Shown piece by piece: positions 46,378-64,000 of a stretch of 64,000 nt of DNA (the first letter of the stretch is position 1; the number at the start of each line of letters is the position of its first letter). The notes beneath the pieces are model-generated. The model was not told the origin of the DNA and did no database searches. It worked only from the letters and a program-made list of their open reading frames with translations. A program made the position numbers and the translations under genes. Origin of the DNA: Candidatus Woesearchaeota archaeon CG10_big_fil_rev_8_21_14_0_10_45_16 (GTDB lineage: Archaea; Nanobdellota; Nanobdellia; Woesearchaeales; GW2011-AR9); NCBI GenBank assembly GCA_002762785.1, contig PCXY01000005.1, forward strand, positions 124,001 to 188,000, read 5' to 3'.

Positions 46378-47466
46378 ATGAAAAAGATAAAGATAATCAC
46401 AGTTTTTGGAACCAGACCGGAGATTATCAAATTATCGCCGGTGATATCGCTTCTGGATGAATGTAGTGACCATATCTTAGTCCATACCGGACAGCACTAT
46501 TCCTACAATCTTGATCGACTTTTCTTTGAAGAGATGCATCTGCGGAATCCAGATCACCAGTTGAACGTCGGCTCCGGAACACCCGCATATCAAGTAGGGA
46601 CCATCATGATGAAAGTGGAAGAGATCCTGCTCAAAGAGAGACCGGATCTGGTCCTAGTGCAAGGAGATACCAATTCCACGCTGGCAGGAGCATTAGCGGC
46701 AGTGAAGTCTGGAATACCTTTAGGCCACATCGAATCAGGATACCGATCTGGCAACCTGCAGATGGCAGAAGAGATCAACCGCATCATCACTGACAGGCTT
46801 TCACGATACCTGTTTGTAGGAACTCAAGAAGGGATGGAAAACCTGCATCGGGAAGGTGTTGAAGGAAAGATGTTTCTCGTCGGCAATACGGCCATCGATG
46901 CTTTACGTAAGAATGAAACGCTGGCGGATGAAAAAGTGCTGGTACAGCATAGCCTTACTTCAGATGGTTACATCCTAGTGACAGTGCATAGAGCTGAGAA
47001 TACGGAGGAGAAGAACCTGAGCAGCATCGTAAACTCCTTGAACAAGTTAGCGGAGATGACTACAGTCGTTTTCCCCATCCATCCACGGACCAGAAAAATG
47101 ATAGAAACGTTCCAGCTGTCTCTCAGCGCAAAGATAACGGTTATCGAATCGACTGGTTACCTTGAGTTTATCAGCCTGATGAAAAATGCAGCGTTTATCA
47201 TGACCGATTCTGGCGGCATCCAGGAAGAAAGTGTCGAGCTGAACGTTCCCTGCCTGATCCTCCGAAATGAAACTGAGACCATGGATCTGGTCAATGCAGG
47301 AAAGACCATCCTTACTACGACCGATAAAGATAGGATCTTCAGTATTGCTTCGTCTCTTCTAGAAAGCAAAGAAAAAAGAGAAGAGATCAAAAACAGGCCA
47401 TTCTCTGGAAAAAGCGGCGTGGCCCAGAAGATAGTTGAGATTCTGCTGAGGGAACTTACTTCCTGA
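46378..47466 (+). CDS. UDP-GlcNAc 2-epimerase family (WecB/WbpI-like)
   Basis: KIITVFGTRPEIIKLSPVI; TGQHYSYNLDRLFFEE; VQGDTNSTLAGALAA; HIESGYRSGN; TDSGGIQEES. Confidence 0.93.
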   Translation: MKKIKIITVFGTRPEIIKLSPVISLLDECSDHILVHTGQHYSYNLDRLFFEEMHLRNPDHQLNVGSGTPAYQVGTIMMKVEEILLKERPDLVLVQGDTNSTLAGALAAVKSGIPLGHIESGYRSGNLQMAEEINRIITDRLSRYLFVGTQEGMENLHREGVEGKMFLVGNTAIDALRKNETLADEKVLVQHSLTSDGYILVTVHRAENTEEKNLSSIVNSLNKLAEMTTVVFPIHPRTRKMIETFQLSLSAKITVIESTGYLEFISLMKNAAFIMTDSGGIQEESVELNVPCLILRNETETMDLVNAGKTILTTTDKDRIFSIASSLLESKEKREEIKNRPFSGKSGVAQKIVEILLRELTS

Positions 47467-47499
47467 ACCTTTTTAAATCGAATTTACAGGGAATCAAAC

Positions 47500-48663
47500 A
47501 TGAACATACGAGTCGCAGGCACCGGCCATACTCCTTTTGGAACCTCTAAGAAAGAGATAGGTGAGCTGATGCTGGAAGCTGTCGAGGAAGCCCTGTCCCA
47601 AGCCAATGCCAAAGCGGACGATGTTGATACTATCTTTATCGCTAACTTCTCCAGCTCATTCGCAGGGCAGAGCCATCTTCCGGCGCTTCTTGCCTCAAAA
47701 CTCAAGACCAATGCTGAAATAGTCAGAGTTGAATCGGCCTGCGCTTCCGGAGGATTAGCTGTAAAAGAGGCAGTAGTCGCTTTATCTTCTGGATTGTACA
47801 AAACGGCTCTTGTCGTCGGTGTGGAAAAGATGAACGCCAGCACTATCTCTGAAGTGACTGGAATACTGGCATCGGCGGCCAGTCCTGACGAGATTATCCA
47901 TGGAGCTACTTTCCCCAGCCTTTACGCTTTGATTGCGAGACAGCATTTTGCAAAATACGGGACGACAGAAGAGCATCTGGCGATGGTCTCAGCCAAAAAC
48001 CATCAAAACGCACGCAAGAACATTTTAGCGCAGTTCAAGAAGGACATCAAAGTGGAAGATGTCCTCAAATCAAAGATGGTCGCTTCGCCTTTGAAACTGC
48101 TGGACTGCTCGCCGATCACCGACGGCGCGGCAGCAGTCTTCTTATGCAACCAGGAGGTCGCTGACAAGTTTACATCAAAAGAGTATCCGTCTGTTGACAT
48201 CATCGGCATCGGCCACAGCAGTGATTCTATCTCTCTTTTGGACAGAAAAGATCTTACGGTGATGCCGGCTGTCGTAAAAGCTGCGCTGAAAGCATATGCG
48301 ATGGGTTCGATAAGCCCGCAGCAGATAGATGTGGCCGAACTTCATGACTGTTTCACCATCGCTGAGATCGTCGAGATGGAAGATCTGGGACTCTGCAACA
48401 AAGGACAAGCCACCGCGATGATTACGGAAGGAAAGACTGCTATTGATGGAATGCTGCCGATCAACCCTAGCGGCGGCCTGAAAGCTAAAGGGCATCCTGT
48501 CGGCGCCACCGGCGTGAGCCAGGTTGTAGAGATAACGAAGCAACTGCAAGGACGCTGCGGTGAAAGGCAGGTGCGAAAAGCGGAGACGGGATTATGCTGC
48601 AATGTCGGCGGTTCAGGAGCGACAGCCGTCGTGACTATATTAAAAAGGGGGATGGAGAGATGA
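47500..48663 (+). CDS. Archaeal-type thiolase (acetyl-CoA C-acetyltransferase / SCP-x-like)
   Basis: VESACASGGLAVKEAV nucleophile Cys, ELHDCFTIAEIVEMEDLG, NPSGGLKAKGHPVGATG; TATA-like tttttaaat upstream. Confidence 0.9.
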   Translation: MNIRVAGTGHTPFGTSKKEIGELMLEAVEEALSQANAKADDVDTIFIANFSSSFAGQSHLPALLASKLKTNAEIVRVESACASGGLAVKEAVVALSSGLYKTALVVGVEKMNASTISEVTGILASAASPDEIIHGATFPSLYALIARQHFAKYGTTEEHLAMVSAKNHQNARKNILAQFKKDIKVEDVLKSKMVASPLKLLDCSPITDGAAAVFLCNQEVADKFTSKEYPSVDIIGIGHSSDSISLLDRKDLTVMPAVVKAALKAYAMGSISPQQIDVAELHDCFTIAEIVEMEDLGLCNKGQATAMITEGKTAIDGMLPINPSGGLKAKGHPVGATGVSQVVEITKQLQGRCGERQVRKAETGLCCNVGGSGATAVVTILKRGMER

Positions 48664-49637
48664 CCTGGAAGATAATCAGCTACTCGGTCATCAACGTTCC
48701 GCCATCTTCTTATAGTGCCGGATACGCGCTTGCTCTGGTCGAGGATGAACAGGGGGAGAGAAAGACGGCCCAGGTAGAACGCCAGCACGCTGCATCCATA
48801 GCTGTTGGTACGCCTGGCACGATCATTATTGATGATGCTCCCAATGGTCTGCAAAAGAAGATCAATGTCTTTGTTCCAGACAACGCTGGATCAGACCGCA
48901 ACGTGAGGGAAGTGGCGTTTATCACCGGCAGTTCACGCGGTATCGGAAAAGCCATCGCTGTGGCTTTGGCAAAAGAGAAGAAAGACATTATCATCAACAA
49001 TAGTGTGGAGTCTGAAGAAGGGCGAAAGACCGTAAAAGAGATCGAGAGATTAGGGGTGCGCTGTTCTTATCTACCCGGGAAGATAAACGATGAGAAACAA
49101 GTGGGTGAGATCGTGGAAAAGATCATCCAGACATATGGTCAGATCGATATCTTAGTCAACAATGCCGGCATAACTAGGGACAAGATGATCGAGAACATGA
49201 GCGCCGAGATGTGGGATGAGGTTCTCGATGTTAACTTGAAAGGGACTTTTCTTTGTACAAAAGCAGTTCTTCATTTTATGGTCAAACAAGGCTCAGGCTC
49301 GATCATAAACATTTCATCTATCATCGGCGAGAACGGGACTATCGGACAGGCTAACTATGCCGCATCGAAAGGCGGGATGATCGCATTCACCAAAAGTATC
49401 GCAAGGGAATGTGCAGGGATGGGTATCAGGGCTAACGCTATCACTCCAGGATTTATCAAGACTGATATGCTCAATCCGATACCGCCGGCCATCCTGGGAG
49501 ACATCGTCAGACAGATACCGCTGCGCCGCCTGGGTAGACCAGAAGAGATTGCCAATGCAGTTGTTTTTCTAGCATCAGATAAAGCCAGTTATATCACCGG
49601 CCAGGTTATTGGTGTTAACGGCGGATTAAGGATGTGA
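48660..49637 (+). CDS. Fusion: OB-fold (DUF35-like) domain + 3-oxoacyl-ACP/acetoacetyl-CoA reductase (FabG/PhaB-like SDR)
   Basis: N-terminal ~80 aa all-beta OB-like segment; from ~48900 VAFITGSSRGIGKAIA, NNAGITRD, NYAASKGG (YxxxK), ANAITPGFI; ATGA overlap with thiolase. Confidence 0.82.
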   Translation: MTWKIISYSVINVPPSSYSAGYALALVEDEQGERKTAQVERQHAASIAVGTPGTIIIDDAPNGLQKKINVFVPDNAGSDRNVREVAFITGSSRGIGKAIAVALAKEKKDIIINNSVESEEGRKTVKEIERLGVRCSYLPGKINDEKQVGEIVEKIIQTYGQIDILVNNAGITRDKMIENMSAEMWDEVLDVNLKGTFLCTKAVLHFMVKQGSGSIINISSIIGENGTIGQANYAASKGGMIAFTKSIARECAGMGIRANAITPGFIKTDMLNPIPPAILGDIVRQIPLRRLGRPEEIANAVVFLASDKASYITGQVIGVNGGLRM

Positions 49638-49707
49638 TGGCTAGAAGAGTTCTAGACCAGATTAAGAGTTCCATAATATTTAAAAAAAGTCCTTAGCCGG
49701 AAAGGTC

Positions 49708-50556
49708 ATGGGCCTTCCAAAACTGACTGAACCCGGACCATGGCAGCAATGCTATGAAGATCAGGACGTCAGAACCCTCGCTGAATGGGGAATTACGGGG
49801 CCCATCGAAACGGTAAGATTGGTGCCAGTAGAAAAACCCAGAGAATTGCGAGAGCTTGACTACAAAGTTGCTTCTTACTGGGAAAAGTTGGCTGCGGAGA
49901 TCACGGCGAAAGGCGGCAAGCCTCGTAACGGAATCTTTCACGGCGTTGCCAACATGGATGCTATTGATGTTGACGGAAAAACCCTTGTCATCGGAACTTA
50001 TCAAGCTGATTTTGCAACCCTTCGTTTTAAGTTAGACGAACTATTTCCAGATCAAGGACAAGAACCACAGTTGACAGCTGAAGAAAAAGGGATTCTTCAA
50101 GATTTTTTCCATATCCTGGGTGTTAGCGCCTTGACGCAGAGCGCGCAGGGTTTATATCTCTTCGGAAGAGTTCAGAAAGACAATTTTTTGAAAGGGGGAA
50201 TGACAGAATATGTCCCGCAAGGCTTCCTGGACCGGAGACAGAATGACCATGATCCAAATGTTAACGCATATGACCAGGAATTATTGAAAGAACTTGAAGA
50301 AGAAACCAGCCTGACGCCAGATGCCATTGAAGCGAGAGATATCACGAGGATAATTGTCAGTGATATTTATTCAAACTTGACAGTTCTTTCTGAGATTAGA
50401 TTAAGAATTGGGTATGACGAGAGGACTCAGCTAAGTAGAGAACATGATAGTTTGGTATGGTATACAAGACCGGAAATCCTCGAGATCCATGAGAGACGCC
50501 ATACCTCCTTGGTCCCCACTGTCCCCAGATTATTTGAGAAGTCAGAAAGTGTGTGA
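49708..50556 (+). CDS. Possible Nudix-fold protein
   Basis: QELLKELEEETSLT resembles REUxEExxU of the Nudix box; remainder not recognised. Confidence 0.4.
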   Translation: MGLPKLTEPGPWQQCYEDQDVRTLAEWGITGPIETVRLVPVEKPRELRELDYKVASYWEKLAAEITAKGGKPRNGIFHGVANMDAIDVDGKTLVIGTYQADFATLRFKLDELFPDQGQEPQLTAEEKGILQDFFHILGVSALTQSAQGLYLFGRVQKDNFLKGGMTEYVPQGFLDRRQNDHDPNVNAYDQELLKELEEETSLTPDAIEARDITRIIVSDIYSNLTVLSEIRLRIGYDERTQLSREHDSLVWYTRPEILEIHERRHTSLVPTVPRLFEKSESV

Positions 50557-50661
50557 AAAGAGATCTGATGTGAAAAGAAATCTGACCATCCGATACCCAC
50601 CGTCTGAAGACTAAATCTTAATTACCTAAACTTTATAAAGCGAAAACCAGAGATTTCTGCC

Positions 50662-51741
50662 ATGATCCCTATTGCTAAACCTATCCTCGGAAAGGAAGAA
50701 AAAGAGGCCGTCCTGGCGGTTCTGGACTCTGGTATGTTAGCCCAGGGAAAAAAAGTCCAGGAGTTTGAAGAATCTTTCGCCAGATTTATCGGGACCAAGC
50801 ATGCTATCGCTACCACCAACGGGACTACGGCGCTTCATGCTGCTCTGCAAGCACTTGGCATAAAAGAAGGAGATGAAGTGATCACCTCGCCGTTCACTTT
50901 TGCCGCCACCGGCAACACCATCAGGATGGTCGGAGCCACGCCAGTCTTTGTAGACATCGATCCTGCTACGTTTAATATCGATTCCCGTCTTTTGGAGAAA
51001 GCGATCACGCCAATGACAAAAGCCATAATGCCCGTACACCTTTTCGGCAAGACGGCAGAGATGGGAAAGATCTGCGAGATTGCCAAGAAACACGGCTTAT
51101 CGATCATCGAAGACGCCTGCCAAGCCCATGGAGCTGCTATCGAAGGAAAGAAAGCAGGAAGCTTCGGGACAGCTTGTTTCTCATTTTACGCGACAAAAAA
51201 CATGACCACTGGAGAAGGCGGCATGGTCACCACCGATGATGATGATGTCGCAGCGGCTGTCCGTAAGTTTATCAACCACGGCTCCTGGAAAAGATATCAT
51301 CATGACAGTGTGGGCCATAATTTCAGGATGACCGACCTGGCTGCCGCCATCGGCTGTGAACAGCTTCGGAAGATCGGACAGTTCAATGCCAAAAGACGCG
51401 AGAATGCCGCTTTCCTGACGAAAAATCTTAAAGAGGTAGCTGGATTGGTCGTTCCAGAAGTGAGTGAGGAGCATGTCTATCATCAATATACTCTAAGGAT
51501 CACTGACCGATTTCCCTGTTCAAGAGATGAAGTGTCCTCTTTATTGACAGAAAAAGGGATCGGCAACGCTACGTTCTATCCCGTTCCTCTTCACCAACAG
51601 CAGTCGTTTGCCGAATATAACAGTCTCTCTTTCCCGGAAGCTGAGAAAGCTGCCAGGGAAGTGCTGTCCATCCCGGTCCATCCGGAAGTCACGCAACAAC
51701 AGCTTCAACAGATTGTCGCTGTCTTAAGGTCGATACGATGA
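50662..51741 (+). CDS. DegT-family UDP-sugar 3-aminotransferase (WbpE-like)
   Basis: IPIAKPILGKEEKEAVLAVLDSGMLAQGKKV; IIEDACQAHGA; CFSFYATKNMTTGEGGMV; TATA-like ctttataaag ~30 nt upstream. Confidence 0.92.
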   Translation: MIPIAKPILGKEEKEAVLAVLDSGMLAQGKKVQEFEESFARFIGTKHAIATTNGTTALHAALQALGIKEGDEVITSPFTFAATGNTIRMVGATPVFVDIDPATFNIDSRLLEKAITPMTKAIMPVHLFGKTAEMGKICEIAKKHGLSIIEDACQAHGAAIEGKKAGSFGTACFSFYATKNMTTGEGGMVTTDDDDVAAAVRKFINHGSWKRYHHDSVGHNFRMTDLAAAIGCEQLRKIGQFNAKRRENAAFLTKNLKEVAGLVVPEVSEEHVYHQYTLRITDRFPCSRDEVSSLLTEKGIGNATFYPVPLHQQQSFAEYNSLSFPEAEKAAREVLSIPVHPEVTQQQLQQIVAVLRSIR

Positions 51742-52718
51742 TACGGATAGGCGTGATAGGAGTCGGTTCTATGGGACAGAACCATGCCCGGGTCTATGCT
51801 GACTGCGAAAATGCTGAACTGGTGGCGGTGGCTGATCCGCAGCCTGAACAACTGCAGAGGGTCGCCCATAAATTCAACGCCGTCCCGTACCAATCATACT
51901 TAGAGATGCTGGAAAAAGAAAACCTGGATGCTGTGTCCATCTCCGTCCCCACCAGTCTTCATAAGAAGGTGGCTATAGAAGCTTTATCCAGAGGGAAACA
52001 TGTCCTTTTGGAGAAACCGATCGCTGAAACCGAGGAAGAAGCCCGGGAGATCATCGATTGCGCAAAGATAAATAACGTCAAGCTGATGATCGGCCATATC
52101 GAAAGGTTTAATCCAGCTATTCTTCATCTTAAAGAACTTCTTGAACAAGGTGAACTGGGGGAGATCTATAAGATCGATGTCCAGAGGATCGGCCCGTTCC
52201 CCAGCCGCATCGCTGACGTTGGCGTCATCATCGACCTTTCCGTCCACGATCTCGATATCATCAACTATCTTACTGATAAAAAACCCTGCCGGGTCTATGC
52301 CGAAGTGCAGCAAAAACTTCACCCGTCACATGAGGATTCAGTGACAGCTCTCCTCAGCTATGACGATGAGATGCTGGCCGTACTGAATGTCAATTATCTT
52401 TCGCCGACAAAGATACGGCAGCTGAAGATCTTCGGGAAGAGAGGCATGTTTAGCGTCGACTATCTCAGCCAGGAATTATGTTTCTTTGAGAATCATAGTT
52501 TCAAGAGTGAGAACTGGGAAAGTGTCTCTGAAGGAGACATGAAAAAGATCCATCTGCCGAAGAAAGAACCATTAAAAGCGGAGATTGAAGCGTTCCTTAA
52601 ATCTATCGAAGAAGACTCGCAGCCGCCGGTAAGCGGCGAACAAGGGCTGCTGGCTTTACAGACCGCCAACCATATTATCCTTTCTGCTAAAGAAAGATCG
52701 ATCGTGAGGGTGCTATGA
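51738..52718 (+). CDS. Gfo/Idh/MocA oxidoreductase (WbpB-like)
   Basis: IRIGVIGVGSMGQNHARVYADCENAELVAVAD; GKHVLLEKPIAET; DLSVHDLDI. Confidence 0.92.
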   Translation: MIRIGVIGVGSMGQNHARVYADCENAELVAVADPQPEQLQRVAHKFNAVPYQSYLEMLEKENLDAVSISVPTSLHKKVAIEALSRGKHVLLEKPIAETEEEAREIIDCAKINNVKLMIGHIERFNPAILHLKELLEQGELGEIYKIDVQRIGPFPSRIADVGVIIDLSVHDLDIINYLTDKKPCRVYAEVQQKLHPSHEDSVTALLSYDDEMLAVLNVNYLSPTKIRQLKIFGKRGMFSVDYLSQELCFFENHSFKSENWESVSEGDMKKIHLPKKEPLKAEIEAFLKSIEEDSQPPVSGEQGLLALQTANHIILSAKERSIVRVL

Positions 52719-53644
52719 AAGCTGCTATGAAAAACAGCGTAGCAAAGAGTAAGATGGCCAGAAGTGGCATAAAAGTCATCATAACCATCCCGGCATACAA
52801 TGAAGAAAAAACCCTGCCGAGAGTGCTGGAAGAGATCAGACGAGTGATGGACAATACTAGGTATAACTATGAGATCCTGATCGTCAACGACGGTTCAAAA
52901 GACAAGACCGTCGAGGTAGCCCAAGCTTGCGGGGCAACTGTCGTGAGCAAAAAACACAGCGGACTGGCTGAAACGTTCAAGTTAGAGATGAAAGAATGTT
53001 TGGCCAGAAAAGCTGATATCATCGTCCACACCGACGCTGACGGGCAGTACCATCCGAAACACATCCCAGAAATGATCGAGAAAGTGCAGCGAGGGTTTGA
53101 CTTAGTTTTAGGCAGCCGTTTCAGGGGGAAGATCGAGAGTATGCCTCTACTGAAAAGACTGGGGAACATCGCTTTCTCGCGGGTCCTAAGTTCGCTGACG
53201 AGAACCAGAATCACCGATTCCACCACTGGCTTCCGGGCGTTCACGGCTGAAGTTGCCAGGGACATCCAGTACATCAACACTTTCACTTATACACAGGAGC
53301 AGATCATCAAAGCGGCCAAGCAAGGTTTCCGTATCGGCGAAGTGCCGATCATCGCCAGAAAGACCAGGGAAAGCAGATTGTTCAAGAACCCTTTACAATA
53401 TGCGATAAAAGCTTGGATCAATATCTTCAGGATCTACCGCGATTATGAACCGTTGAAATTCTTTGGAAAGATCGGACTGGCCGGATTCCTCGGTGGTTTC
53501 CTGATCGGTTTCTATTTTGTCTATCTTCATTTTACGACCGGCATCAAAGGCCATATCGGCCTGCTGTTCCTGATGCTGATCCTGCTGGTGTTCGGCCTGC
53601 AGACAATATTGTTCGGCTTTCTGGCAGACATGATGAAAAGGTAG
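52715..53644 (+). CDS. GT2 glycosyltransferase with C-terminal TMs (DPM-like)
   Basis: ITIPAYNEEKTL, IVNDGSKDKT, HTDADGQYHP, GSRFRGKI. Confidence 0.9.
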   Translation: MKAAMKNSVAKSKMARSGIKVIITIPAYNEEKTLPRVLEEIRRVMDNTRYNYEILIVNDGSKDKTVEVAQACGATVVSKKHSGLAETFKLEMKECLARKADIIVHTDADGQYHPKHIPEMIEKVQRGFDLVLGSRFRGKIESMPLLKRLGNIAFSRVLSSLTRTRITDSTTGFRAFTAEVARDIQYINTFTYTQEQIIKAAKQGFRIGEVPIIARKTRESRLFKNPLQYAIKAWINIFRIYRDYEPLKFFGKIGLAGFLGGFLIGFYFVYLHFTTGIKGHIGLLFLMLILLVFGLQTILFGFLADMMKR

Positions 53645-53704: not shown

Positions 53705-55153
53705 CTATTTCTTAAACAGCTTTTTAAGAGGTTGAAAATCTTTAGTAGAGATTTCACCGAAGAGATACAATATAAGAAAATATATCAATCCGTAGACGAG
53801 ATAGTTGAACAAGATCATTAGTCCTGAGTACTGCCAAAGCGAAGCGATAAGATAGATAAAGACGGAAACCAGGATAATCTTTAATGACGACATTAAATTA
53901 GTCAACGTCTTAAAACGGGCATAGACATAGGCTGCGGCGACGGCACACGCAAAAATAGACGTTATCAATTGGGCGTACGCCGCTCCGACCAACCCATAGG
54001 ATGGCATCAATAAGAAGTCGAGGAAGACGAGGATAACCAACAACAATATCGTAAAGTTTAGTTCTATCTTCGGCTTGCCGCAGGCAGTGGTAACCGACAG
54101 AAGAACAGAAAAAAATACCAGGAAAGTGGACCCGAAAACTAAGACGGCAAGGACAGGAGCAGCAGAGACATATGACGGCGAGTAAATAAGAGACAAGATC
54201 TGGGGAGCCGTCGCTGCCGCCACCGCATTAAAAGGAGCAAGTATCAAGAGGCAATACCGTAAAGATGACGAAAGGTATTTACGTATAAGAGGGCCATTCT
54301 CTTCCGAGAAAGCTTTTGATACTGAAGGCGTAAGAGTCATTGGAAGAGCGCTAAAAACAAGGTAAGAGAGATTAGATACTGTAAAAGCAGCCGTATAAAG
54401 GCCGGCAACCGCATTGTCTACCAAAAAATATTTGATAAAGAGAGTATTCACATTACGGATAAGTGATTTTGAGAATATAGCGACAGTCAAAGGAAACGCG
54501 AAGAGAAATATCTTTCTGAAGTTGACCGGAGAACCACCACTGCCCGTGATAACTTTCTTTTCCCTGGATAAAAAATAATTCGTGACCAACAACCCATAGA
54601 GATAAGATAACAAGAAAGCCCACAAGACACCAAAGATTCCGTATCCCAAAAACATGAACAAAAATGCCAATACAACTCTCACGATCAACAGTGAGGTCTT
54701 GATGATCGCTTGGAGCCTAAACTGGCGCAGGCCATTCATATATCCCGACAACATCAATGAGAGCCAGGAATATGGGATCAGCATAAATCCCAGAAAGATA
54801 AGATAGGGAGAGAGAGAACTATCTCCTAACAGATCGGCGATGGAATGGGCAAAGATCAAGTATAAAGCAGAGAAGAAAAATGTTAACGCAAACTGCATTC
54901 TCAAAGAGATTTTCATCAACGACCGGATGTTTATCGTTACATCGGACATAAACTTTGATATCGTCCGAGGAATCGCTATGTTTAACAAGGCATCATTGAC
55001 AAGGTAGAACGACATAATAATCCCAAAAACACCATACAACTCGACTCCGAGGAGGCGAGCGATACCTATATGCATCGCGTAGTTAGACAAGACTGCTACA
55101 ATAACAGATGCCATAAGCCAGATAGTGCCGACTCCTAACGATTGTCTTGCCAT
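53705..55153 (-). CDS. Oligosaccharide flippase (MOP/Wzx-like)
   Basis: Multi-TM; GIARLLGVELYGVFGIIMSFYLV; RTISKFMSD. Confidence 0.85.
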   Translation of the reverse strand: MARQSLGVGTIWLMASVIVAVLSNYAMHIGIARLLGVELYGVFGIIMSFYLVNDALLNIAIPRTISKFMSDVTINIRSLMKISLRMQFALTFFFSALYLIFAHSIADLLGDSSLSPYLIFLGFMLIPYSWLSLMLSGYMNGLRQFRLQAIIKTSLLIVRVVLAFLFMFLGYGIFGVLWAFLLSYLYGLLVTNYFLSREKKVITGSGGSPVNFRKIFLFAFPLTVAIFSKSLIRNVNTLFIKYFLVDNAVAGLYTAAFTVSNLSYLVFSALPMTLTPSVSKAFSEENGPLIRKYLSSSLRYCLLILAPFNAVAAATAPQILSLIYSPSYVSAAPVLAVLVFGSTFLVFFSVLLSVTTACGKPKIELNFTILLLVILVFLDFLLMPSYGLVGAAYAQLITSIFACAVAAAYVYARFKTLTNLMSSLKIILVSVFIYLIASLWQYSGLMILFNYLVYGLIYFLILYLFGEISTKDFQPLKKLFKK

Positions 55154-55276
55154 TTGTCGATGCGAATTGCCAGGATCATGCTTTAAAAGCTTTATGCGGA
55201 TGTGTTCTCAAAATGAGAGTAATATCAGAAAAAGTGAATCATAACTCTTTTAAACAGATGAGCGCAATATTTGACG

Positions 55277-56248
55277 ATGAAAGTAGCCTATCTCGGAAGA
55301 GACAGTTCTCAGGAGCATTCTGGTCGCCTTTGCGGTCCGCAGAGACTGGGGACAGAACTTGAAAAACGGATGCGTACCCATCTACAGACCCATCTTCTTT
55401 TCTCCGGTGATCCGGCTGCCTCGCTGCCAAGGATGATCTTAAGCATCAGAAAGAACAAGATCAAAGTCATGCATGCCCACGGATCAATCAACAGTGGACT
55501 GTGGCTGCTGCTGCTCAAAAGATTTGTGAAGTCAAAAGCCATCCTCACGTTCACCGATTTTAAGAAAAATGTCACCAACAACTATAAGATCTTGAATGGT
55601 CTCGATGCAGTCATCGTCATGGATGAATTCGCCAGAAAGAAGCTGATTGACGAAGGAGTGAAACGGGATAAGGTCCATCTAGTTCCATATGGGGTTGAGG
55701 ATTCGTTCTATAACGCAAAACAGTCAGCTGTCGTACGAAAGATGGCAAAGAAGATCATCCTTTATTATGGTGATGCGCGGATGGAAAGGGGTTTTCACCT
55801 GATCTTAAGATCGCTGCAGCATATCAAAGACGATACTTTGGTGCTGCTCTGCGTCCGTAACTTCCATGAAGGCTTCAGCAAGGAAGGAGTAGAAAAGTTC
55901 ATCAGTAGATATAAAAACGTTAAACTCTGGACCGTTAAGGATTACCCCTGTTCGATCCATGACCTAGTAAAGTCCGTAGATCTCGTCCTGCTGCCGTTCA
56001 TCAAGAACACGTTAGAACCTCCGTTGACATTACTGGAAGTTTCGGCTGCTGGAAAGCCCCTGGTCACGTTTAACATCGGCGGCAACAGAGAGGTGGTCTC
56101 TCCTGGATCAGTAGTCCTAGACCGGAAAGATCATCTGCAGATAGCTGAAGCTGTCAATGACTTCCGTCCTGGAAAGAGAGAGCAAAAAAGAATATTTTAT
56201 AATTGGGACGAGACAGTACGAAAGATAAGGGAGATCTACGATAAGTGA
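55277..56248 (+). CDS. GT4-family glycosyltransferase
   Basis: IILYYGDARMERGFHLILRSL; LEPPLTLLEVSAAGKPLVTFNIGGNREVV; TATA-like cttttaaac ~30 nt upstream. Confidence 0.82.
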   Translation: MKVAYLGRDSSQEHSGRLCGPQRLGTELEKRMRTHLQTHLLFSGDPAASLPRMILSIRKNKIKVMHAHGSINSGLWLLLLKRFVKSKAILTFTDFKKNVTNNYKILNGLDAVIVMDEFARKKLIDEGVKRDKVHLVPYGVEDSFYNAKQSAVVRKMAKKIILYYGDARMERGFHLILRSLQHIKDDTLVLLCVRNFHEGFSKEGVEKFISRYKNVKLWTVKDYPCSIHDLVKSVDLVLLPFIKNTLEPPLTLLEVSAAGKPLVTFNIGGNREVVSPGSVVLDRKDHLQIAEAVNDFRPGKREQKRIFYNWDETVRKIREIYDK

Positions 56249-56251
56249 AGC

Positions 56252-57055
56252 ATGAAATTCAAAGACATCATCAAAACTTTACGGGACTATCAGTTCAGGA
56301 GCATCATTCATAATGCTTTCTCCCTTATGATCAGCGACGCCCACGTCGTATCGTATCGAAAGAGCGGACGCACCTGGCTGCGGCTGCTGATAGCCAAAGT
56401 TCTTTCTGAGAGTTACGGCTTCAAGAAGATAAAACTTGATACTCAGTACATGACATTGTTCAGCAAAGCGCCGAACGTCGTCTTTTCCCATGCCGGCTGC
56501 ACCATCAACGACAACAAGGTCAACTTCAAGAAACTTCTTAGGAAGAAAAAGATTGTTTTTCTATCGAGAGATCCCCGGGATGATGTCGTCTCCCTCTACA
56601 ACGATTATACCAAGAGAGATAATGTCTGCGAGATGGATCCCTCTTCGTTCATCCGGGATGAGAAGTATGGGGTGGGGATGATAGTGCGATATCTCAACAG
56701 CTGGAAAGCAGAGATGGACAAAAGACAAGGAGATTTTCTGCTGGTCCGTTATGAAGACATGAAGAAAGATGCTGGTCATGAATTAAGACGCGTACTTGAT
56801 TTTTTGAAGATCAAATATACTCCTGAAGTGATTGAGAAAGCGGTGGAATACGGCTCGTTCAGCAACATGCGGAAGATGGAAGCGACGGATACGTTTGATG
56901 ACAAGCGGATGCAGGCGAGAGATAAGGACGATATCAGCAGTTATAAGACGCGTAAGGGGAAAGTAGGCAGCCATAAAGAGGAGCTGTCTGCAGAAGATAT
57001 ATTGTATCTTGACGAGCAGGTAAAAGCGCATCTTGATCCTGAGTTCGGGTATTGA
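56252..57055 (+). CDS. PAPS-dependent sulfotransferase
   Basis: 5'-PSB-like VVSYRKSGRTWLRLLI, 3'-PB-like FLSRDPRDDVVSLY, C-terminal RKGKVGSHKEELS. Confidence 0.88.
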   Translation: MKFKDIIKTLRDYQFRSIIHNAFSLMISDAHVVSYRKSGRTWLRLLIAKVLSESYGFKKIKLDTQYMTLFSKAPNVVFSHAGCTINDNKVNFKKLLRKKKIVFLSRDPRDDVVSLYNDYTKRDNVCEMDPSSFIRDEKYGVGMIVRYLNSWKAEMDKRQGDFLLVRYEDMKKDAGHELRRVLDFLKIKYTPEVIEKAVEYGSFSNMRKMEATDTFDDKRMQARDKDDISSYKTRKGKVGSHKEELSAEDILYLDEQVKAHLDPEFGY

Positions 57056-57181
57056 TCGATCATCTCTCTTTGCTTTATTCACACCCATCTTCTATTCTCA
57101 TCTTCCATAAGCCTTTTAAAGCAGCAACCTCCCGAAATCACCGACGAATAGTCTTAAAATTTTGAAAAAGAATCGTTCGAG

Positions 57182-59446
57182 GTGTTATATAAAGTGGTTA
57201 AAAAGATCAAGATTATCGCGACTCTAGGACCTGCAACCAATAAAGAGGAAGATATCGTCAGGGTCAAAGATAAAGGCGTCGATTTCATCCGCATCAACAT
57301 GTCGCATTCTTCACTAGAAGATATGGAGCATTTCCTGAAGATGGCTAAAAAGGTAAAGATACCATTTGTCATCGACACGGAAGGGTCACAGGTCAGGACT
57401 GGTGAATTGTCCACACCGACGGTAGACGTTTCTGAAAACAGCGAGATAAAGATCTTTGATAAGCCGATCGTCGGTGATAATACTAAGCTGTCATTAAAAC
57501 CGGAAGGTGTAGTGCCGCAGCTGGAGAAAGGCGACCTTATCCAGATCGATTTTGATACAGCTGTCCTGAGAGTCAGTGATACATCGACCATCAGTCGGGG
57601 TTACATCACGGCGAAAGTGGTCACAGCCGGTATCCTTGGAAAGAATAAAGCGGTTGTCCTGGATCGGGCCTGCGGCAGACCATTGCACCTCCCAATTCTT
57701 TCAAAGAAAGATTATGATTCCATCAAGCTGGGTATGGAGTATGGCGTCGGCCATATCGCTCTTTCCTTTGCGCGATCAGGTAAATGTCTTGATGAAGTAC
57801 GGAGAGCTACCCAGAACACCATGCAGGTCATCTCTAAGATCGAATGTGTCGATGCTCTCCGCAACCTGGATGTGATAATCGCCAAATCTGATTATCTCCT
57901 GATAGATCGGGGAGATCTCAGCAAAGAGATACCAGTCGAGAAGATCCCCTTCACTCAGAAGATCATCCTTAACAAGGCGGCTAAAGCAAAAGTGCCGGTG
58001 TTCGTCGCGACCAATCTTTTGGAAACGATGATCAATTCACGGAAGCCTACAAGGGCAGAAGTGCATGATATCCTTAACACCATCCTGGACGGGGCCGGCG
58101 GTCTGGTATTGGCTGCAGAAACGGCCATCGGCAAGCATCCGATGGAATGTATCAACATGCTCAACAAACTGATCAACCATGCTCAGCTAGCCATGGACGG
58201 CAGTGATGTTTCACAAAAAGAGGAAGAATTTGTCAGTAAGCTGTTGGCAAAGAATTATCTTCTTGATTCAGAAGTGTCGTCATCATTGATAGAGCCGCAC
58301 GGCGGCCGATTGGTCAACCGGGTGGCTGTTAAGATTCCAGAGAAGTCCTATCTTGATTCCCTGCCAAAGATAAATTTGGATGAGAACCGGCAGCGTGACG
58401 TGGAACAGATCGCCGTGGGAACCTACAGCCCCATCGAAGGCTTCATGAACAAAGACAATTTTAATTCCGTCCTTGACCGGATGAGACTTTCTAATGGATT
58501 GGTCTGGTCGCTGCCGATCTTCCTGGACGTCAGCGAGGAGAAAGCAGCAGAACTGGCTGTCGGCAGTGATGTGGCTTTAGTCGATGAGCGTGGCGAAGCG
58601 ATGGCTATCCTGAATCTTGAAGAGAAATATCATTTTGACAAGACGGAGATGGCTGAGAAATTGTATGCTACGCTTAGCGACGAGCATCCCGGCGTGAGAT
58701 GGATCTTTAACCTTAATCCGGTGATGCTGGGCGGAAAGATCACCTTACTGAGGAGAAGAGACAACGAGGATAAAGAGTACGAGATGACACCAAAGCAGAC
58801 CAGAAGCTTGTTTGAGGAGAGGGGGTGGTCTAAAGTGGTGGCGTTCCATACCCGGAACGTACCGCATAGAGGTCATGAGTTCATCCAGATGAAAGCCATG
58901 GAACGTGAAAAGTGCGACGGCTTGTTCGTCCATCCTGTTGTCGGCAAGAAGAAGCAGGGTGATTTCAATGCCAAATATATCACTAAAGCCTATGAGATCA
59001 TGACTGAGAAGTTTTACCCGCAGAACAGGGTCATCTTCGGCACTTTTTCAACCTACAGCCGTTATGCTGGACCGAGGGAAGCTTTATTTACGGCCTTATG
59101 CCGTCAGAATTTTGGCTGTAGCCATTTTGTCGTCGGCAGAGACCACACCGGGGTAAAAGATTTTTATCACCCAAAAGCATCCCATAACATCTTCGACAGG
59201 TTCCCGGACATCGGCATCAAAGCTGTCTGCTTCGATAAGGTGTTCTATTCTCCGACACTGCAGGACCATGTCCATCTGGCCGATAATCCTGAGCATCCTG
59301 AAGACGATTCCCAGCATATCAGCGGCACCCAGGCCCGAAAGATGTTCGAGGCGGGAGAACTGCCTCCTGCCTGGTTCATGCGGCCGGAGATCTCGCAGAT
59401 GATCATCGATGCGGTGAAGAGAGGCGAAGAAGTGTTTGTGAGGTGA
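57182..59446 (+). CDS. Fusion: pyruvate kinase catalytic domains (A/B) + ATP sulfurylase (Sat)
   Basis: PK: IIATLGPAT, FIRINMSH, DTEGSQVRTG, VISKIE, DRGDLSKEIP, VATNLLETMI, ETAIGKHP; Sat from ~58285: PHGGRLVNRV, HTRNVPHRGHEFIQ, VVGRDHTGVKDFY, ISGTQARKMFEAGELPPAWFMRPEI; GTG start at 57182 or 57194. Confidence 0.92.
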   Translation: MLYKVVKKIKIIATLGPATNKEEDIVRVKDKGVDFIRINMSHSSLEDMEHFLKMAKKVKIPFVIDTEGSQVRTGELSTPTVDVSENSEIKIFDKPIVGDNTKLSLKPEGVVPQLEKGDLIQIDFDTAVLRVSDTSTISRGYITAKVVTAGILGKNKAVVLDRACGRPLHLPILSKKDYDSIKLGMEYGVGHIALSFARSGKCLDEVRRATQNTMQVISKIECVDALRNLDVIIAKSDYLLIDRGDLSKEIPVEKIPFTQKIILNKAAKAKVPVFVATNLLETMINSRKPTRAEVHDILNTILDGAGGLVLAAETAIGKHPMECINMLNKLINHAQLAMDGSDVSQKEEEFVSKLLAKNYLLDSEVSSSLIEPHGGRLVNRVAVKIPEKSYLDSLPKINLDENRQRDVEQIAVGTYSPIEGFMNKDNFNSVLDRMRLSNGLVWSLPIFLDVSEEKAAELAVGSDVALVDERGEAMAILNLEEKYHFDKTEMAEKLYATLSDEHPGVRWIFNLNPVMLGGKITLLRRRDNEDKEYEMTPKQTRSLFEERGWSKVVAFHTRNVPHRGHEFIQMKAMEREKCDGLFVHPVVGKKKQGDFNAKYITKAYEIMTEKFYPQNRVIFGTFSTYSRYAGPREALFTALCRQNFGCSHFVVGRDHTGVKDFYHPKASHNIFDRFPDIGIKAVCFDKVFYSPTLQDHVHLADNPEHPEDDSQHISGTQARKMFEAGELPPAWFMRPEISQMIIDAVKRGEEVFVR

Positions 59447-59454
59447 ATTAGAAC

Positions 59455-61149
59455 CTAATCTTTGCTTTTACTTTTCGATTTCTTTGATTTGGACATCTTT
59501 ATCTGATCTCCCTGTATCTCTCGTGGTTTCCCTAAACTGAGTATTGTCTTGACGACTCCTTTAAAATCTTGTCCTTCTACCAGGTAGGTGATACAAGGGT
59601 CTTTTTCTTTGTAGAGTTGGATCATCTTTTTGCTGGGATTAAAACAGATCCTGGTTTCTGTCGCTTTAAGCATCGGGATATCCGAATAACCATCACCGAC
59701 GCCGATGCTTCCTTCCTCCGGGATGGAATAACGTTCCATGATGTATTTAACGATATAATATTTAACGTCATCATGGAGAACATTTTTTTCGGCAACTTCG
59801 CCGGTGATGATCCCTTTCTTTTCATCAAGCACATTACAATAGATCTCGTCGATGCCAAGTTCTTTACATATCGGCGTGACTATCTGGGAGAAACCTGAAG
59901 AGATAGCAACAAGGTAGTACCCGTTATCCTTAAGTTCTTTGATGCCGGCCTTGACGTTATCGATCAACCGAAGATTTGGTATGAACGCTTTGATGTCGCT
60001 TACTTTAAGACCTTTCAGCAGCTTTGCGCTTTCGATGATAGCCTCTTGCATACTCAACGTTCCCTCAATCTGTCTGATGATAAATTCCAACACTTCTTTC
60101 TGCTTGCCCATCAGGTTCGCAAGTTCTACCGTAGTGTGATTCTGTGTGAAGATACGATTGACATCAAAAGCGATAAGTTTCTTTGGTTTGTCCTCGCTGA
60201 GAGATAGTAGCAGATGATCTTGTTCTTTAGGAAAGTCGCCGTCCTCTTTGAGAGAGACTGTAGTTGTCATAAGGGATAAAAAGTGCTGTTTGGTCTGTTT
60301 GATAGTTTCGTAGGAATTTATGAAGATACCGCCGCTGGTAAGACCGTTTGAATTTTTTAAGAACATGAATAGAGCATCGCCTTCTTCATCATTTTCTATA
60401 AGGGCGAAATTAAAGGGTGTTGGGGTCTTGCGAAGATCGATATTCTTATTCTGGATAGTTTTCTTTTTGGTGATAGCCAAGATCTCTTGTAACTCTTCTT
60501 TGATAAGCTCGCGGTTCTTATATTTTTTTTGAAGCCTGTGCTGAAGAGCCTCTGTCCTATAAGGAGAGAGACAGAACAAAGAGAAAGAAGAATCATGTAT
60601 CTTGTCGGTAAGTGTCTCAATATACGCAGCTTCCTGGGCACTGTTACATAAAGCGAAAGAGTAAGCGTACTGAGGGAAGTCGCAGCCGATGTAAAAAGCG
60701 CTGGCATTTTTCAGATAGAACACCAACTGTTTATATAGTTCAGCTTCTGTAAGGTAGGTTACAGAGATAGAATTTGGCTTGATGTATTTTTCAAAGAAAG
60801 CCTGAGTGTCGGAAGCAAAATTTGTTATCTCATCCATCTCTTGGGCTAATTCTTTCTTCTTGGCATATATCACTTCCTGGATGCCCCTTAAGTTCAGAAG
60901 ATATTGAGAATTCTCAGTCTTCATGATTACCCCTTTCTCCTGAAGGATCCGTAGCTGGGTAAAAAGGTTCGATTTTTGGATAAACCCCTTGGTCTCTTTA
61001 AAATACTCGCGTTCTATCACGACCGGATTGGTCGGGAGCTTATTCTCTTGAAGCTGAAAGATTATCCCGATTATACTGGTCTGCTGGCTGGTCAACTGCA
61101 GCCATCTCGCTATCTTGGGGATCATTTTGTTTCTACTTTGGAGTGGCAT
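59455..61149 (-). CDS. Fusion: winged-HTH/TrmB-like regulator + SerB-like HAD domain
   Basis: N-terminal wHTH-like LTSQQTSIIGIIF...SNLFTQLRILQEKGVI; C-terminal IAFDVNRIFT, VAISSGFSQIV, GVGDGYSDIPML; Lys/Ser-rich tail. Confidence 0.68.
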   Translation of the reverse strand: MPLQSRNKMIPKIARWLQLTSQQTSIIGIIFQLQENKLPTNPVVIEREYFKETKGFIQKSNLFTQLRILQEKGVIMKTENSQYLLNLRGIQEVIYAKKKELAQEMDEITNFASDTQAFFEKYIKPNSISVTYLTEAELYKQLVFYLKNASAFYIGCDFPQYAYSFALCNSAQEAAYIETLTDKIHDSSFSLFCLSPYRTEALQHRLQKKYKNRELIKEELQEILAITKKKTIQNKNIDLRKTPTPFNFALIENDEEGDALFMFLKNSNGLTSGGIFINSYETIKQTKQHFLSLMTTTVSLKEDGDFPKEQDHLLLSLSEDKPKKLIAFDVNRIFTQNHTTVELANLMGKQKEVLEFIIRQIEGTLSMQEAIIESAKLLKGLKVSDIKAFIPNLRLIDNVKAGIKELKDNGYYLVAISSGFSQIVTPICKELGIDEIYCNVLDEKKGIITGEVAEKNVLHDDVKYYIVKYIMERYSIPEEGSIGVGDGYSDIPMLKATETRICFNPSKKMIQLYKEKDPCITYLVEGQDFKGVVKTILSLGKPREIQGDQIKMSKSKKSKSKSKD

Positions 61150-61217
61150 TTATAAATGTTACTATGATTATATGCATACCCCCATAGTATTAAGATATTA
61201 TGACTATAAATAGCACT

Positions 61218-61247
61218 AGGTAATAGTCCAACCAAGACTATTCACCT
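61218..61247. promoter_or_regulatory. Inverted repeat in divergent promoter region, candidate operator
   Basis: AGGTAATAGTC-CAACCAA-GACTATTcACCT; 11-bp arms with one bulged C; lies just downstream of a TATA-like gactataaatag. Confidence 0.5.
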
Positions 61248-61267
61248 GGTTACGTCCCGCGTTTTTA

Positions 61268-62119
61268 ATGCAATTCCATTCCAGATGGTGGATGACAACA
61301 ACAACAAAACTTGTTTCATCCGACCTTAACGGAACTTTGGTGCATCAACACACTATGAGCGACATGATCAGGATATATCTTGGTCAGGAGAATTTTGAGA
61401 AAGCTAATGCTGTCTTCAAGAAGCAGACTTCGGGAGAAGCCAGCATGGAAGCAGCGTTCGGCAACGCCGGCCCTTTGACTAGAGGATTAACTTTACGGCA
61501 GGCCCTGGAATACACGCGGGACCATATGAGATTCGTGGACGGATTTCAGCCATTTGTCGACGAACTGGCAGATAGGCAGACCCCTTTCATCATCAATTCT
61601 ACAGGCTACTCAGTCACCATCCACGCCATCAGGGCTCAGCTGGGCCGGGATAAGATCGCTGGACAGATCGGCAACCGCCTTGAATTCGGCCAGGATGCTG
61701 ATCCACAGGCAGTATTGAGGGAAGATGAGCTGGAGAATCTGGTCTTTGATTATTTTGCATCCGGAAAAACCACCGATAGAGCTTATGATCGTATCAAAGC
61801 GACAGGTGTCGTCCATCTAGGAATAGTAGATGAAGCGGCCAAAGCCTCGCTGTTATTGGATCGTGTGGCGGCAGAATTTCCGGGCATTAATCCGACGGAA
61901 ATTGTCCACATCGGCGATACTTACGGAGATTTCGGCGGCATCTCGGGAATAGCTAAAGCTGGAGGCACAGGGATCGCTTTCAATTACAATGGTATTCTAG
62001 AAACCAAGCTAAAAGAAGAGATCGCTCAAGATCTTTCATTAGGCGCGCTGATCCATTTCGTCGATCCAAAGGGACCGGACTGCGACATGCGAAGGGTGCT
62101 GCCGATAGTATACAAATAG
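61268..62119 (+). CDS. HAD-superfamily hydrolase
   Basis: VSSDLNGTLVH (DxNGT variant), FIINSTGYS, HIGDTYGDFGGI; alternative start 61292. Confidence 0.75.
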   Translation: MQFHSRWWMTTTTKLVSSDLNGTLVHQHTMSDMIRIYLGQENFEKANAVFKKQTSGEASMEAAFGNAGPLTRGLTLRQALEYTRDHMRFVDGFQPFVDELADRQTPFIINSTGYSVTIHAIRAQLGRDKIAGQIGNRLEFGQDADPQAVLREDELENLVFDYFASGKTTDRAYDRIKATGVVHLGIVDEAAKASLLLDRVAAEFPGINPTEIVHIGDTYGDFGGISGIAKAGGTGIAFNYNGILETKLKEEIAQDLSLGALIHFVDPKGPDCDMRRVLPIVYK

Positions 62120-62240
62120 ATTTTTACCATCTATTTTTTCTTATTTCTATCTTAAGAGTGATAAGATGCTCTCTTGATACTGTCCATTGATAGAATCCTA
62201 ACACATAACCTTTTTAAAGCATTTTCAAGAGCCATGCATT

Positions 62241-63563
62241 ATGGGAAAAGTCGTCTGGTTTACGGGGTTGAGCGGTTCTGGAAAGACCACCATCGCCCTC
62301 AGATTAAAGAAAGAACTAGAGAAGCAGGACAAGACCGTCCACATCCTTGACGGCGACGTGGTGAGGAACGAGCTCCATAAAGACCTCGGCTTCTCCCGGG
62401 AAGACATCAGAGAGAACAACCGACTGATAGCCTTGCTGGCAAAGAAGTATCAAGATTCTTCAGATTTTGTTTTGGTCCCTATCATCTCACCATACCGGGA
62501 AGACCGAGCCATGGCCAGATCGATTATCGGCCCCAGTTTCATGGAGCTCTATGTCAACTGTTCTTTAGACGGCTGCATCAAGAGAGATGTCAAAGGCTTG
62601 TATCAGAAGGCTCTAGCCGGCGAGATCGACAATTTAATCGGCGTGGCTGACTCGAATCCGTATGAAGCGCCGGAAAATCCTGAACTGGAGATCAATACGG
62701 AAAAGAATGATCTTGACACTAGCATCGACCTGATCAGCAGCAGATTGCTGAAAGATAAGCTGCCTTTTGAAACTTCTTTCCCCGAGATAAAGATGGCGAT
62801 AGAAGGCATCCTGGAAGCGGGAAAAGCAGTCATGGAGATCTATAGTCGTGATTACGATATCTCCAGAGATAAAGATGGAGAACCGACCACAGAAGCCGAT
62901 AAGAAAAGCAATCAGATCCTGATGAACGCACTGGGAAAGACCGGCCACATGATCCTCTCAGAAGAAGATGTCAATGATGAAAAAAGATTAGGAGAAGAAT
63001 ATGTCTGGATCGTCGATCCCATCGATGGCACTTCTGATTTTGTCAACAAGACCGGCGAGTTCACGATCATGGTAGGGCTGGTAAAAGATCACGTGCCGGT
63101 GCTCGGTCTGGTCCTGTGGCCTCCCCAGAAGATCCTATTCATCGGTGAGAAAGGCAAAGGAGCGTATAAGCTCGAGAAAGGAGAATGGCAGAAGATACGG
63201 TGCAGCAGTAAGACCGATCTTAAAGAATGCCGCCTGATGAGGAGCCGACACCATCTCTCAGAGGAGGAACAACGGGTCGCTTCAGAACTCGGCATCACCA
63301 TGGCCGCGGCCAGAGGCAGCAGCCTGAAAGCCATGGATATCGCTCAAGGTTCAGGAGACCTCTATTTCACATTAACTTCAAAGATCAAGCAGTGGGATAC
63401 CTGCGCTTCATACTGCATCCTTACCGAAGCTGGAGGAAAGATGACAGATATCTTTGGAAATGCTCTTCAATATAATACTACTAAAGTAAACCACGAAAAT
63501 GGGATACTGGCGACAAACGGGATTGTCCATGAAAACTTTATAAAAAACTGCCAGAGACATTGA
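62241..63563 (+). CDS. Fusion: APS kinase (CysC) + CysQ-like 3'(2'),5'-bisphosphate nucleotidase
   Basis: CysC: WFTGLSGSGKTTIA, LDGDVVRNELHKDLGFSREDIRENNRL, ISPYREDR, RDVKGLYQKALAGEIDNLIGV; CysQ from ~62790: EPTTEADKKSNQIL, LSEED, VDPIDGTSDFVN, QWDTCASYCILTEAGG. Confidence 0.93.
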   Translation: MGKVVWFTGLSGSGKTTIALRLKKELEKQDKTVHILDGDVVRNELHKDLGFSREDIRENNRLIALLAKKYQDSSDFVLVPIISPYREDRAMARSIIGPSFMELYVNCSLDGCIKRDVKGLYQKALAGEIDNLIGVADSNPYEAPENPELEINTEKNDLDTSIDLISSRLLKDKLPFETSFPEIKMAIEGILEAGKAVMEIYSRDYDISRDKDGEPTTEADKKSNQILMNALGKTGHMILSEEDVNDEKRLGEEYVWIVDPIDGTSDFVNKTGEFTIMVGLVKDHVPVLGLVLWPPQKILFIGEKGKGAYKLEKGEWQKIRCSSKTDLKECRLMRSRHHLSEEEQRVASELGITMAAARGSSLKAMDIAQGSGDLYFTLTSKIKQWDTCASYCILTEAGGKMTDIFGNALQYNTTKVNHENGILATNGIVHENFIKNCQRH

Positions 63564-63572
63564 TACATCTCA

Positions 63573-63686
63573 ATGTTCCAGGCTAAAGATAAGGGAAAGA
63601 AAAACCTGATGACTTATAAGCATCTTAAAGATCTTTTGCAGAAGTCTGGGTTTGAGATTGTCGGCTACTCGACTGCCGGATTTTAG
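63573..63686 (+). pseudogene. Possible remnant of a methyltransferase C-terminus
   Basis: Short ORF MFQAKDKGKKNLMTYKHLKDLLQKSGFEIVGYSTAGF; HLKDLLQKSGFEIV resembles the C-terminal end of SAM-methyltransferases. Confidence 0.25.
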
Positions 63687-63810
63687 AGCAAGATATGATA
63701 TGAGTCCTTTTCAAAGAAGGTGTCCTCATCTTTACAGAGAAAAAGCGACCGGAGAAAGAGACCATTACGCTTCGGCAACGGTGTGGTATTCATAGCAAGA
63801 AAGATTTGAA

Positions 63811-64000
63811 TTATCGGTATCCAAAATCGGGATGCAGTTCTGCCTCAAGTCTACCATTAAGATAAGAGATATCAGCAGGTGACAGATAATCGTTATAACC
63901 TCCAACTTTGGCTTTCCTTACTTTATATGATTCAACGTCATTTTTGTTTTTTGCTCGAAGACGGTAATCTATAAATGAATCCGATCTTTCCATCTTTCGC
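63811..64000 (-). CDS. C-terminal part of a second sulfotransferase, continuing beyond the window end
   Basis: RKMERSDSFIDYRLRAKNKNDVESYKVRKAKVGGYNDYLSPADISYLNGRLEAELHPDFGYR aligns with RKMEATDTFDDKRMQARDKDDISSYKTRKGKVGSHKEELSAEDILYLDEQVKAHLDPEFGY of 56252-57055; frame stays open to base 64000. Confidence 0.75.
   Translation of the reverse strand, partial: RKMERSDSFIDYRLRAKNKNDVESYKVRKAKVGGYNDYLSPADISYLNGRLEAELHPDFGYR

Follow-up and report, generated by a model that had tools for sequence, protein, structure and literature searches.

The first step of sulfate activation, catalysed by ATP sulfurylase (Sat), is strongly unfavourable, and the second, catalysed by adenosine 5′-phosphosulfate (APS) kinase, yields ADP. 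When human PAPSS1 was used in vitro, 3′-phosphoadenosine 5′-phosphosulfate (PAPS) was practically missing unless pyruvate kinase (PK) and phosphoenolpyruvate (PEP) regenerated the ATP (PMC9885120). Fusions of Sat with a pyrophosphatase in stramenopiles and haptophytes apply the same pull logic to the other product (PMC2275785). For the sulfation of archaeal glycans, Agl30 and Agl31 are a genetic precedent (PMC11980604). Here we describe a locus of Candidatus Woesearchaeota archaeon CG10_big_fil_rev_8_21_14_0_10_45_16 in which PK is itself fused to Sat (PK–Sat). It lies near the end of a 64,000-nt stretch of contig PCXY01000005.1 (the window), part of a 1.18 Mb genome that is 98% complete, and its gene order is sulfotransferase ST1, PK–Sat, HAD genes, APS kinase–CysQ fusion and sulfotransferase ST2 (Table 1). 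We consider it likely that the locus is a module dedicated to PAPS synthesis and sulfation, in which PK regenerates ATP and surface glycans are the acceptors. Of this predicted function, it is PAPS synthesis and sulfation that are well supported. The PK fusion, its most unusual element, had been noted in an original prediction made from the window alone, where it was left uninterpreted.

Genes were called with Pfam and NCBIfam profiles, and scores are compared with the curated cut-offs of the models. In PK–Sat, a complete PK domain (PF00224, 1–328 of 328) precedes an equally complete ATP sulfurylase (PF14306, PF01747). The Sat half exceeds the cut-offs of sopT TIGR00339 (377 bits against 323) and NF003166 (438 bits against 387), and carries the Sat motifs TRNxxHxxH and GRDH as FHTRNVPHRGH and GRDHTG; its closest solved structure is 8a8d from Methanothermococcus thermolithotrophicus (42% identity). 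Full-length PK models score below their cut-offs on the fusion. An AlphaFold2 model of PK–Sat (predicted local distance difference test, 91; predicted template modelling score, 0.81) matched ATP sulfurylases with one half and pyruvate kinases with the other in Foldseek, where no listed match covers both halves well. In the numbering of E. coli PykF (sequence from NC_000913), R32, N34, S36, D66, K220, E222 and D246 are invariant in every fusion covering those positions, with K220, E222 and D246 present in 57 of 57 and position 278 occupied by Thr or Ser. The fused domain therefore keeps the catalytic residues of PK, and conversion of PEP and ADP to pyruvate and ATP is its most likely predicted activity.

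The remaining steps are encoded alongside. The APS kinase domain qualifies as an equivalog domain of TIGR00455 (189.5 bits against 138.7) and is the only true APS kinase found by a genome-wide family search; with the other PK–Sat-linked APS kinases it forms a clade of its own (Shimodaira–Hasegawa-like approximate likelihood ratio test (SH-aLRT), 99). The CysQ part, of the inositol-monophosphatase family, has TIGR01331 as its best specific model (176.9 bits, below the cut-off of 228.8). ST1 and ST2 are 42% identical and are the sole PF00685 genes of the genome in a family search. Both contain the 5′-PSB and 3′-PB motifs of PAPS-dependent sulfotransferases (KSGRTWLR...SRDPRD and PKSGHTWLR...VRDPRD), and the solved structures closest to ST1 are PAPS-dependent cytosolic sulfotransferases. 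The whole ST2 gene was taken from the genome (L005:7811-8680, 289 aa, PF00685 E = 5e-27), and an ortholog, 55% identical, lies beside PK–Sat in another genome, G124. All the genes that the original prediction had named were recovered with these profiles, ST2 being completed from the genome, and Pfam matches bear out the flippase and glycosyltransferases that it had placed nearby. Its claim that 8 kb hold the steps from sulfate to PAPS, transfer and PAP (the by-product of transfer) removal stands as to the complete gene set, with the correction that most of ST2 lies past the window end. Profile scores and the synteny kept in unrelated genomes rule out a chance arrangement.

In the mechanism that we propose, Sat would convert sulfate and ATP into APS and pyrophosphate (PPi), and APS kinase would convert APS into PAPS with release of ADP. 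The fused PK, for which PEP-driven ATP regeneration is most likely, would then turn ADP back into ATP at the cost of PEP, so that the removal of ADP and the ATP made locally pull the unfavourable sulfurylase reaction and PAPS synthesis forward. ST1 and ST2 would transfer the sulfo group to acceptors. These are most likely intermediates of cell-surface glycans, which the neighbouring glycosyltransferases would assemble and the flippase would export; CysQ would remove PAP, which is inhibitory. The neighbouring genes suggest that the acceptor is probably a surface glycan; of the sulfated surface glycans predicted earlier, the sulfation gene set and its glycosyltransferase and flippase context hold, and the glycan as acceptor is read from that context only.

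To place the fusion, GTDB representatives were scanned, and at least 48 full-length PK–Sat loci were found among the best 80. They come from the Candidate Phyla Radiation (CPR; Falkow-, Komeili-, Harrison-, Magasanik-, Yanofsky-, Giovannoni-, Staskawicz- and Nealsonbacteria, Paceibacterota and others), Omnitrophota, Chloroflexi (Anaerolineae), Proteobacteria (Delta-, Alpha- and Gammaproteobacteria), Elusimicrobia, Bdellovibrionales, Bacteroidetes, Melioribacteraceae, Nitrospinia and DPANN archaea. Two rhizobial megaplasmids, of Sinorhizobium chiapasense S24 and Ensifer adhaerens CTYH.Ch1, also carry PK–Sat (L186:11992-14772, L187:11962-14169), in the former with an APS kinase directly after it; a search of viral contigs yielded none. 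Within the phylum of the window genome, 8 of 382 sampled genomes have the full-length fusion. A Sat tree with 82 rows gathers all PK–Sat fusions in one clade (SH-aLRT 100, quick search) whose only two non-fused members are a Nanoarchaeota record with PK and Sat in adjacent open reading frames and a Peregrinibacterial Sat; in ten rows PK, Sat and APS kinase form a single protein. The tree indicates a single origin of PK–Sat. Within the clade, fusions from archaea and from bacteria are intermixed, which indicates gene transfer, and an archaeal invention of PK–Sat was rejected on the same ground. The module, described earlier as archaeal, is shared across many bacterial phyla. Sulfotransferase–APS kinase fusions, in opposite orders, were also seen in a relative of the window genome (L038:5209-6582) and in Sungiibacteriota (L102:12131-13504).

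The neighbourhoods of the fusion point to sulfation. A sulfotransferase lies at most three genes away in 29 of 48 fusion loci and in 4 of 29 stand-alone Sat loci (Fisher p = 5e-5), although the stand-alone set is mostly from Nitrososphaerota and p-values thus overstate independence. Where at least three genes are visible on both sides, the proportions are 26/35 and 2/19. Conversely, genes with the reductase domain PF01507 lie within three genes at none of the 48 fusion loci and at 14 of the 29 stand-alone Sat loci. When 138 immediate PK–Sat neighbours were scanned against Pfam without preselection, Sulfotransfer_1 (19) and Sulfotransfer_3 (15) ranked first, followed by methyltransferases, Inositol_P (the CysQ family), glycosyltransferases, flippases and sugar aminotransferases. 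Of 61 relatives, 13 have a strong APS kinase (E < 1e-15), 8 have a PF00685 sulfotransferase and 5 have both (odds ratio 9.4, p = 0.008). The co-occurrence that the original prediction had proposed to look for is therefore kept, both in relatives and at other PK–Sat loci.

Several observations weigh against a dedicated, PEP-driven sulfation module. No APS kinase is in reach at 14 of the 48 fusion loci and no sulfotransferase lies within eight genes at 17, many of these loci being on short contigs. In the window genome APS kinase is a protein separate from PK–Sat, so that channelling of ADP is not obvious there. The PK–Sat-linked APS kinases have also lost ordinary residues (DR to DI, NxRR to NNRL and FTG to xIG), reading DI.ENNR and N.IG instead of DR.EN..R and FTG; their P-loop, DGD, ISP and RD.KGLY are retained. 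As to the fused PK, A243D and Q279N mark all 57 fusions, the free PKs checked having A at the first position and Q or H at the second, and the C-terminal regulatory domain is missing (PF02887 is not among the Pfam matches); its substrate could for these reasons have changed. Finally, the sulfate importers SulP and DASS are absent from the window genome (ATP-binding cassette importers were not searched for), and the earlier description of the system as self-contained fails for sulfate import. A PQ-loop/SemiSWEET-like membrane protein, encoded between PK–Sat and APS kinase or CysQ at two loci (L072:10428-10697, L090:12803-13099) and fused to APS kinase in a third genome (L040:11-772), may supply the import or export step that is missing.

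One alternative is that the fused PK is the glycolytic PK of the cell, with the fusion balancing expression or letting sulfate status regulate PK. A family search found one PK domain in the window genome, the fused one, and the fused PK is the only PK in all nine DPANN genomes examined (the window genome and eight others). However, among bacterial PK–Sat genomes of at least 2.5 Mb, five encode a separate ordinary PK of ~480 aa (G409, 2.5 Mb, does not), and so does the 1.0 Mb genome G400; G403 gave no stand-alone PK for comparison, the longest open reading frame in L185 being another enzyme. Because the larger genomes mostly keep a separate PK, the fused one probably has a dedicated role in genomes with both, and a double role is possible in reduced genomes. 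Given also that the fusion was inherited as one clade linked to sulfotransferases, and that the domain lost is the allosteric one, we regard a purely glycolytic role as unlikely. A second alternative is that the PK domain acts on another substrate, or senses nucleotide or PEP to control Sat. It draws on the two replacements of the clade, which flank the catalytic D246 and T278 and are not found in the free PKs compared, but all the catalytic side chains are kept and the structural model matches known pyruvate kinases; this too seems improbable.

A third alternative arises from a phosphoramidate-type decoration cluster that begins immediately downstream, beyond the window end (L005:8800-14282, window equivalent 64800-70282). 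It encodes a cytidylyltransferase fused to an L-glutamine-kinase-like domain (NF004508, 858 bits against 501), a class I amidotransferase that scores best with the gamma-glutamyl-CDP-amidate hydrolase model (112 bits, below the cut-off of 250) and a nucleotidyltransferase, a set that we take to be similar to Campylobacter Cj1415–Cj1418. Other archaeal genomes of the phylum, G022 among them, have the cluster too, as do plasmids of Vibrio, Azospirillum and Deltaproteobacteria; in some cases CysD/CysN or an APS-kinase-like gene lies next to it. Proteins that start with CGLCLAY were seen inside archaeal glutamine-kinase clusters (L077:13066-13527, with a HIT domain, and L079:12023-12466); HIT proteins include phosphoramidase-type hydrolases. 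The gene set resembles that of the phosphoramidate capsule pathway described in Campylobacter (PMC6429109, PMC10971088), and, with bacterial versions of the cluster carrying an APS-kinase-like gene, the APS kinase–CysQ fusion might be the CDP-amidate kinase of the adjoining cluster, a homologue of the one for the Campylobacter capsule. We judge this very unlikely. The window kinase belongs to the PK–Sat-linked clade, apart from two cluster-linked kinases; it passes the apsK cut-off and reaches 106.6 bits with PRK05541, below the cut-off of 127 that the cluster kinase of plasmid CP026658 passes; and G124 combines PK–Sat, APS kinase, CysQ and the ST2 ortholog without a glutamine kinase. A role of the fusion in the phosphoramidate-type pathway was rejected on the kinase tree and model scores, and, because the window kinase groups with PK–Sat, we take the cluster to be a decoration pathway of its own that shares the surface locus.

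That the module genes feed assimilatory sulfate reduction, a pathway to which Sat and APS kinase are common, can, for known enzymes, be set aside as highly improbable, since the genome has no sulfite reductase, its lone PF01507 match is CysD-like, reductase-domain genes are missing beside the fusions and two sulfotransferases stand in the cluster. In detail, a family search of the window genome found no sulfite/nitrite reductase (PF01077) and no PAPS reductase, the CysD-like gene being the only PF01507 match; AprA-type reductases were not searched for. The original prediction, in which no APS or PAPS reductase was visible in the window, thus agrees with the whole genome, where no sign of reduction fed by the module, its own proposed ground for refutation, was found. 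A use of Sat and APS kinase for cysteine synthesis was rejected, with neither a sulfite reductase nor a CysH-type gene in the genome. The CysD-like gene lies on another contig (G000:C4, L173:8577-13061; PRK05253, 318.6 bits against 195) and, in a search for a second ATP sulfurylase, proved an orphan, no CysN scoring above cut-off in the window genome; the best CysN match there is presumably elongation factor 1A. Two alkaline-phosphatase-superfamily genes stand beside it, and G043 (L170) also has a CysD-like gene, next to a sulfatase-like gene.

Table 1 Genes of the sulfation locus and its upstream context (window positions)
Feature	Position	Strand	Evidence or remark
Sulfotransferase ST1, 267 aa	56252..57055	+	PF00685 E=3.3e-25, PF13469 E=1.7e-9
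PK–Sat: pyruvate kinase aa ~7-347, ATP sulfurylase aa ~368-748	57182..59446	+	PF00224, PF14306, PF01747
564-aa protein, C-terminal HAD-IB domain	59455..61149	-	PF12710 at aa 376-495; motif I = DVN
HAD-family protein HAD2, motif I DLNGT	61268..62119	+	Pfam
APS kinase aa 2-170, CysQ-type 3′-nucleotidase aa 184-438	62241..63563	+	PF01583 E=1.4e-52, PF00459 E=1.4e-49
Sulfotransferase ST2, C-terminal end (~190 nt)	63811..64000	-	Gene extends to window equivalent 64680
Wzx-type flippase (context)	53705..55153	-	PF01943/PF13440
Family 2 glycosyltransferase (context)	52715..53644	+	PF00535
Group 1 glycosyltransferase, directly upstream of ST1 (context)	55271..56248	+	PF00534
Sugar-nucleotide genes (context): UDP-GlcNAc 2-epimerase, DegT aminotransferase, Gfo/Idh/MocA oxidoreductase	46378..52718	+	Pfam

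Two HAD proteins are encoded between PK–Sat and the APS kinase–CysQ fusion. The 564-aa protein has no Pfam match over its N-terminal ~320 aa, which leaves its earlier label of regulator unproven; beyond the shared HAD part it has no homologue at other PK–Sat loci, and it neighbours PK–Sat in the window genome only. HAD2 adjoins PK–Sat also in G015 (L037:8898-9746, 63% identity) and in a Parcubacterium (L096:12314-13159). In both window proteins, and in these relatives of HAD2, Asn replaces the second catalytic Asp of motif I, and the two are possibly not ordinary phosphatases. Further upstream, a thiolase and a short-chain dehydrogenase are interspersed among the sugar-nucleotide genes.

Extending the reading beyond this genome, we tentatively propose, at somewhat less than even confidence, that PK–Sat is a PEP-powered form of sulfate activation, a third way of coupling besides pyrophosphatase and the CysN GTPase, which had a single origin and was carried by gene transfer across CPR, DPANN and other phyla, at the heart of a portable module for sulfating the surface polymers of ultra-small cells. 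Few studies seem to have dealt with sulfation in CPR and DPANN cells, many of which are thought to be host-attached: in the open-access literature, with subscription papers and preprints outside the scope, we found no paper joining sulfotransferase, sulfation and the CPR, and no description of a PK–ATP sulfurylase fusion. Of the candidate for an undescribed system in the original prediction, PK–Sat is the part for which that literature gave no description; the sulfation of archaeal glycans is already known from the Agl30/Agl31 work (PMC11980604). An architecture of single origin could serve as a genomic marker for sulfation capacity. It also gives a testable idea on energy coupling in sulfate activation, since cultured rhizobia carry PK–Sat, and could supply enzymatic sulfation, for which PK is already added by hand to regenerate ATP, with a natural self-regenerating PAPS synthase.

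Compared with known systems, the module carries out the same two reactions as the bifunctional PAPS synthases (human PAPSS1/2, Aquifex 2gks), which are likewise on one polypeptide at some PK–Sat loci; PK–Sat differs in its added N-terminal pyruvate kinase, and the APS kinase of the window in its fusion to CysQ. The Sat–pyrophosphatase of stramenopiles and haptophytes (PMC2275785) also joins to Sat a second enzyme able to pull the unfavourable reaction, but it removes PPi, whereas PK–Sat would recycle ADP with PEP. In the CysDN(C) complex, sulfate activation for sulfation or reduction is likewise tied to an extra energy source, GTP; its sulfurylase is unrelated to Sat, and the source proposed for PK–Sat is PEP. 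Methanothermococcus thermolithotrophicus has the closest solved Sat and a solved APS kinase, in a sulfate assimilation pathway that is reductive, with PAPS reductase, a DHH-family PAP phosphatase and an F420-dependent sulfite reductase (PMC10322725). Halobacterium salinarum, of another archaeal lineage, uses two sulfotransferases, Agl30 and Agl31, on a surface N-glycan, and the abstract of that report mentions no PK–Sat (PMC11980604); the present locus likewise encodes two sulfotransferases.

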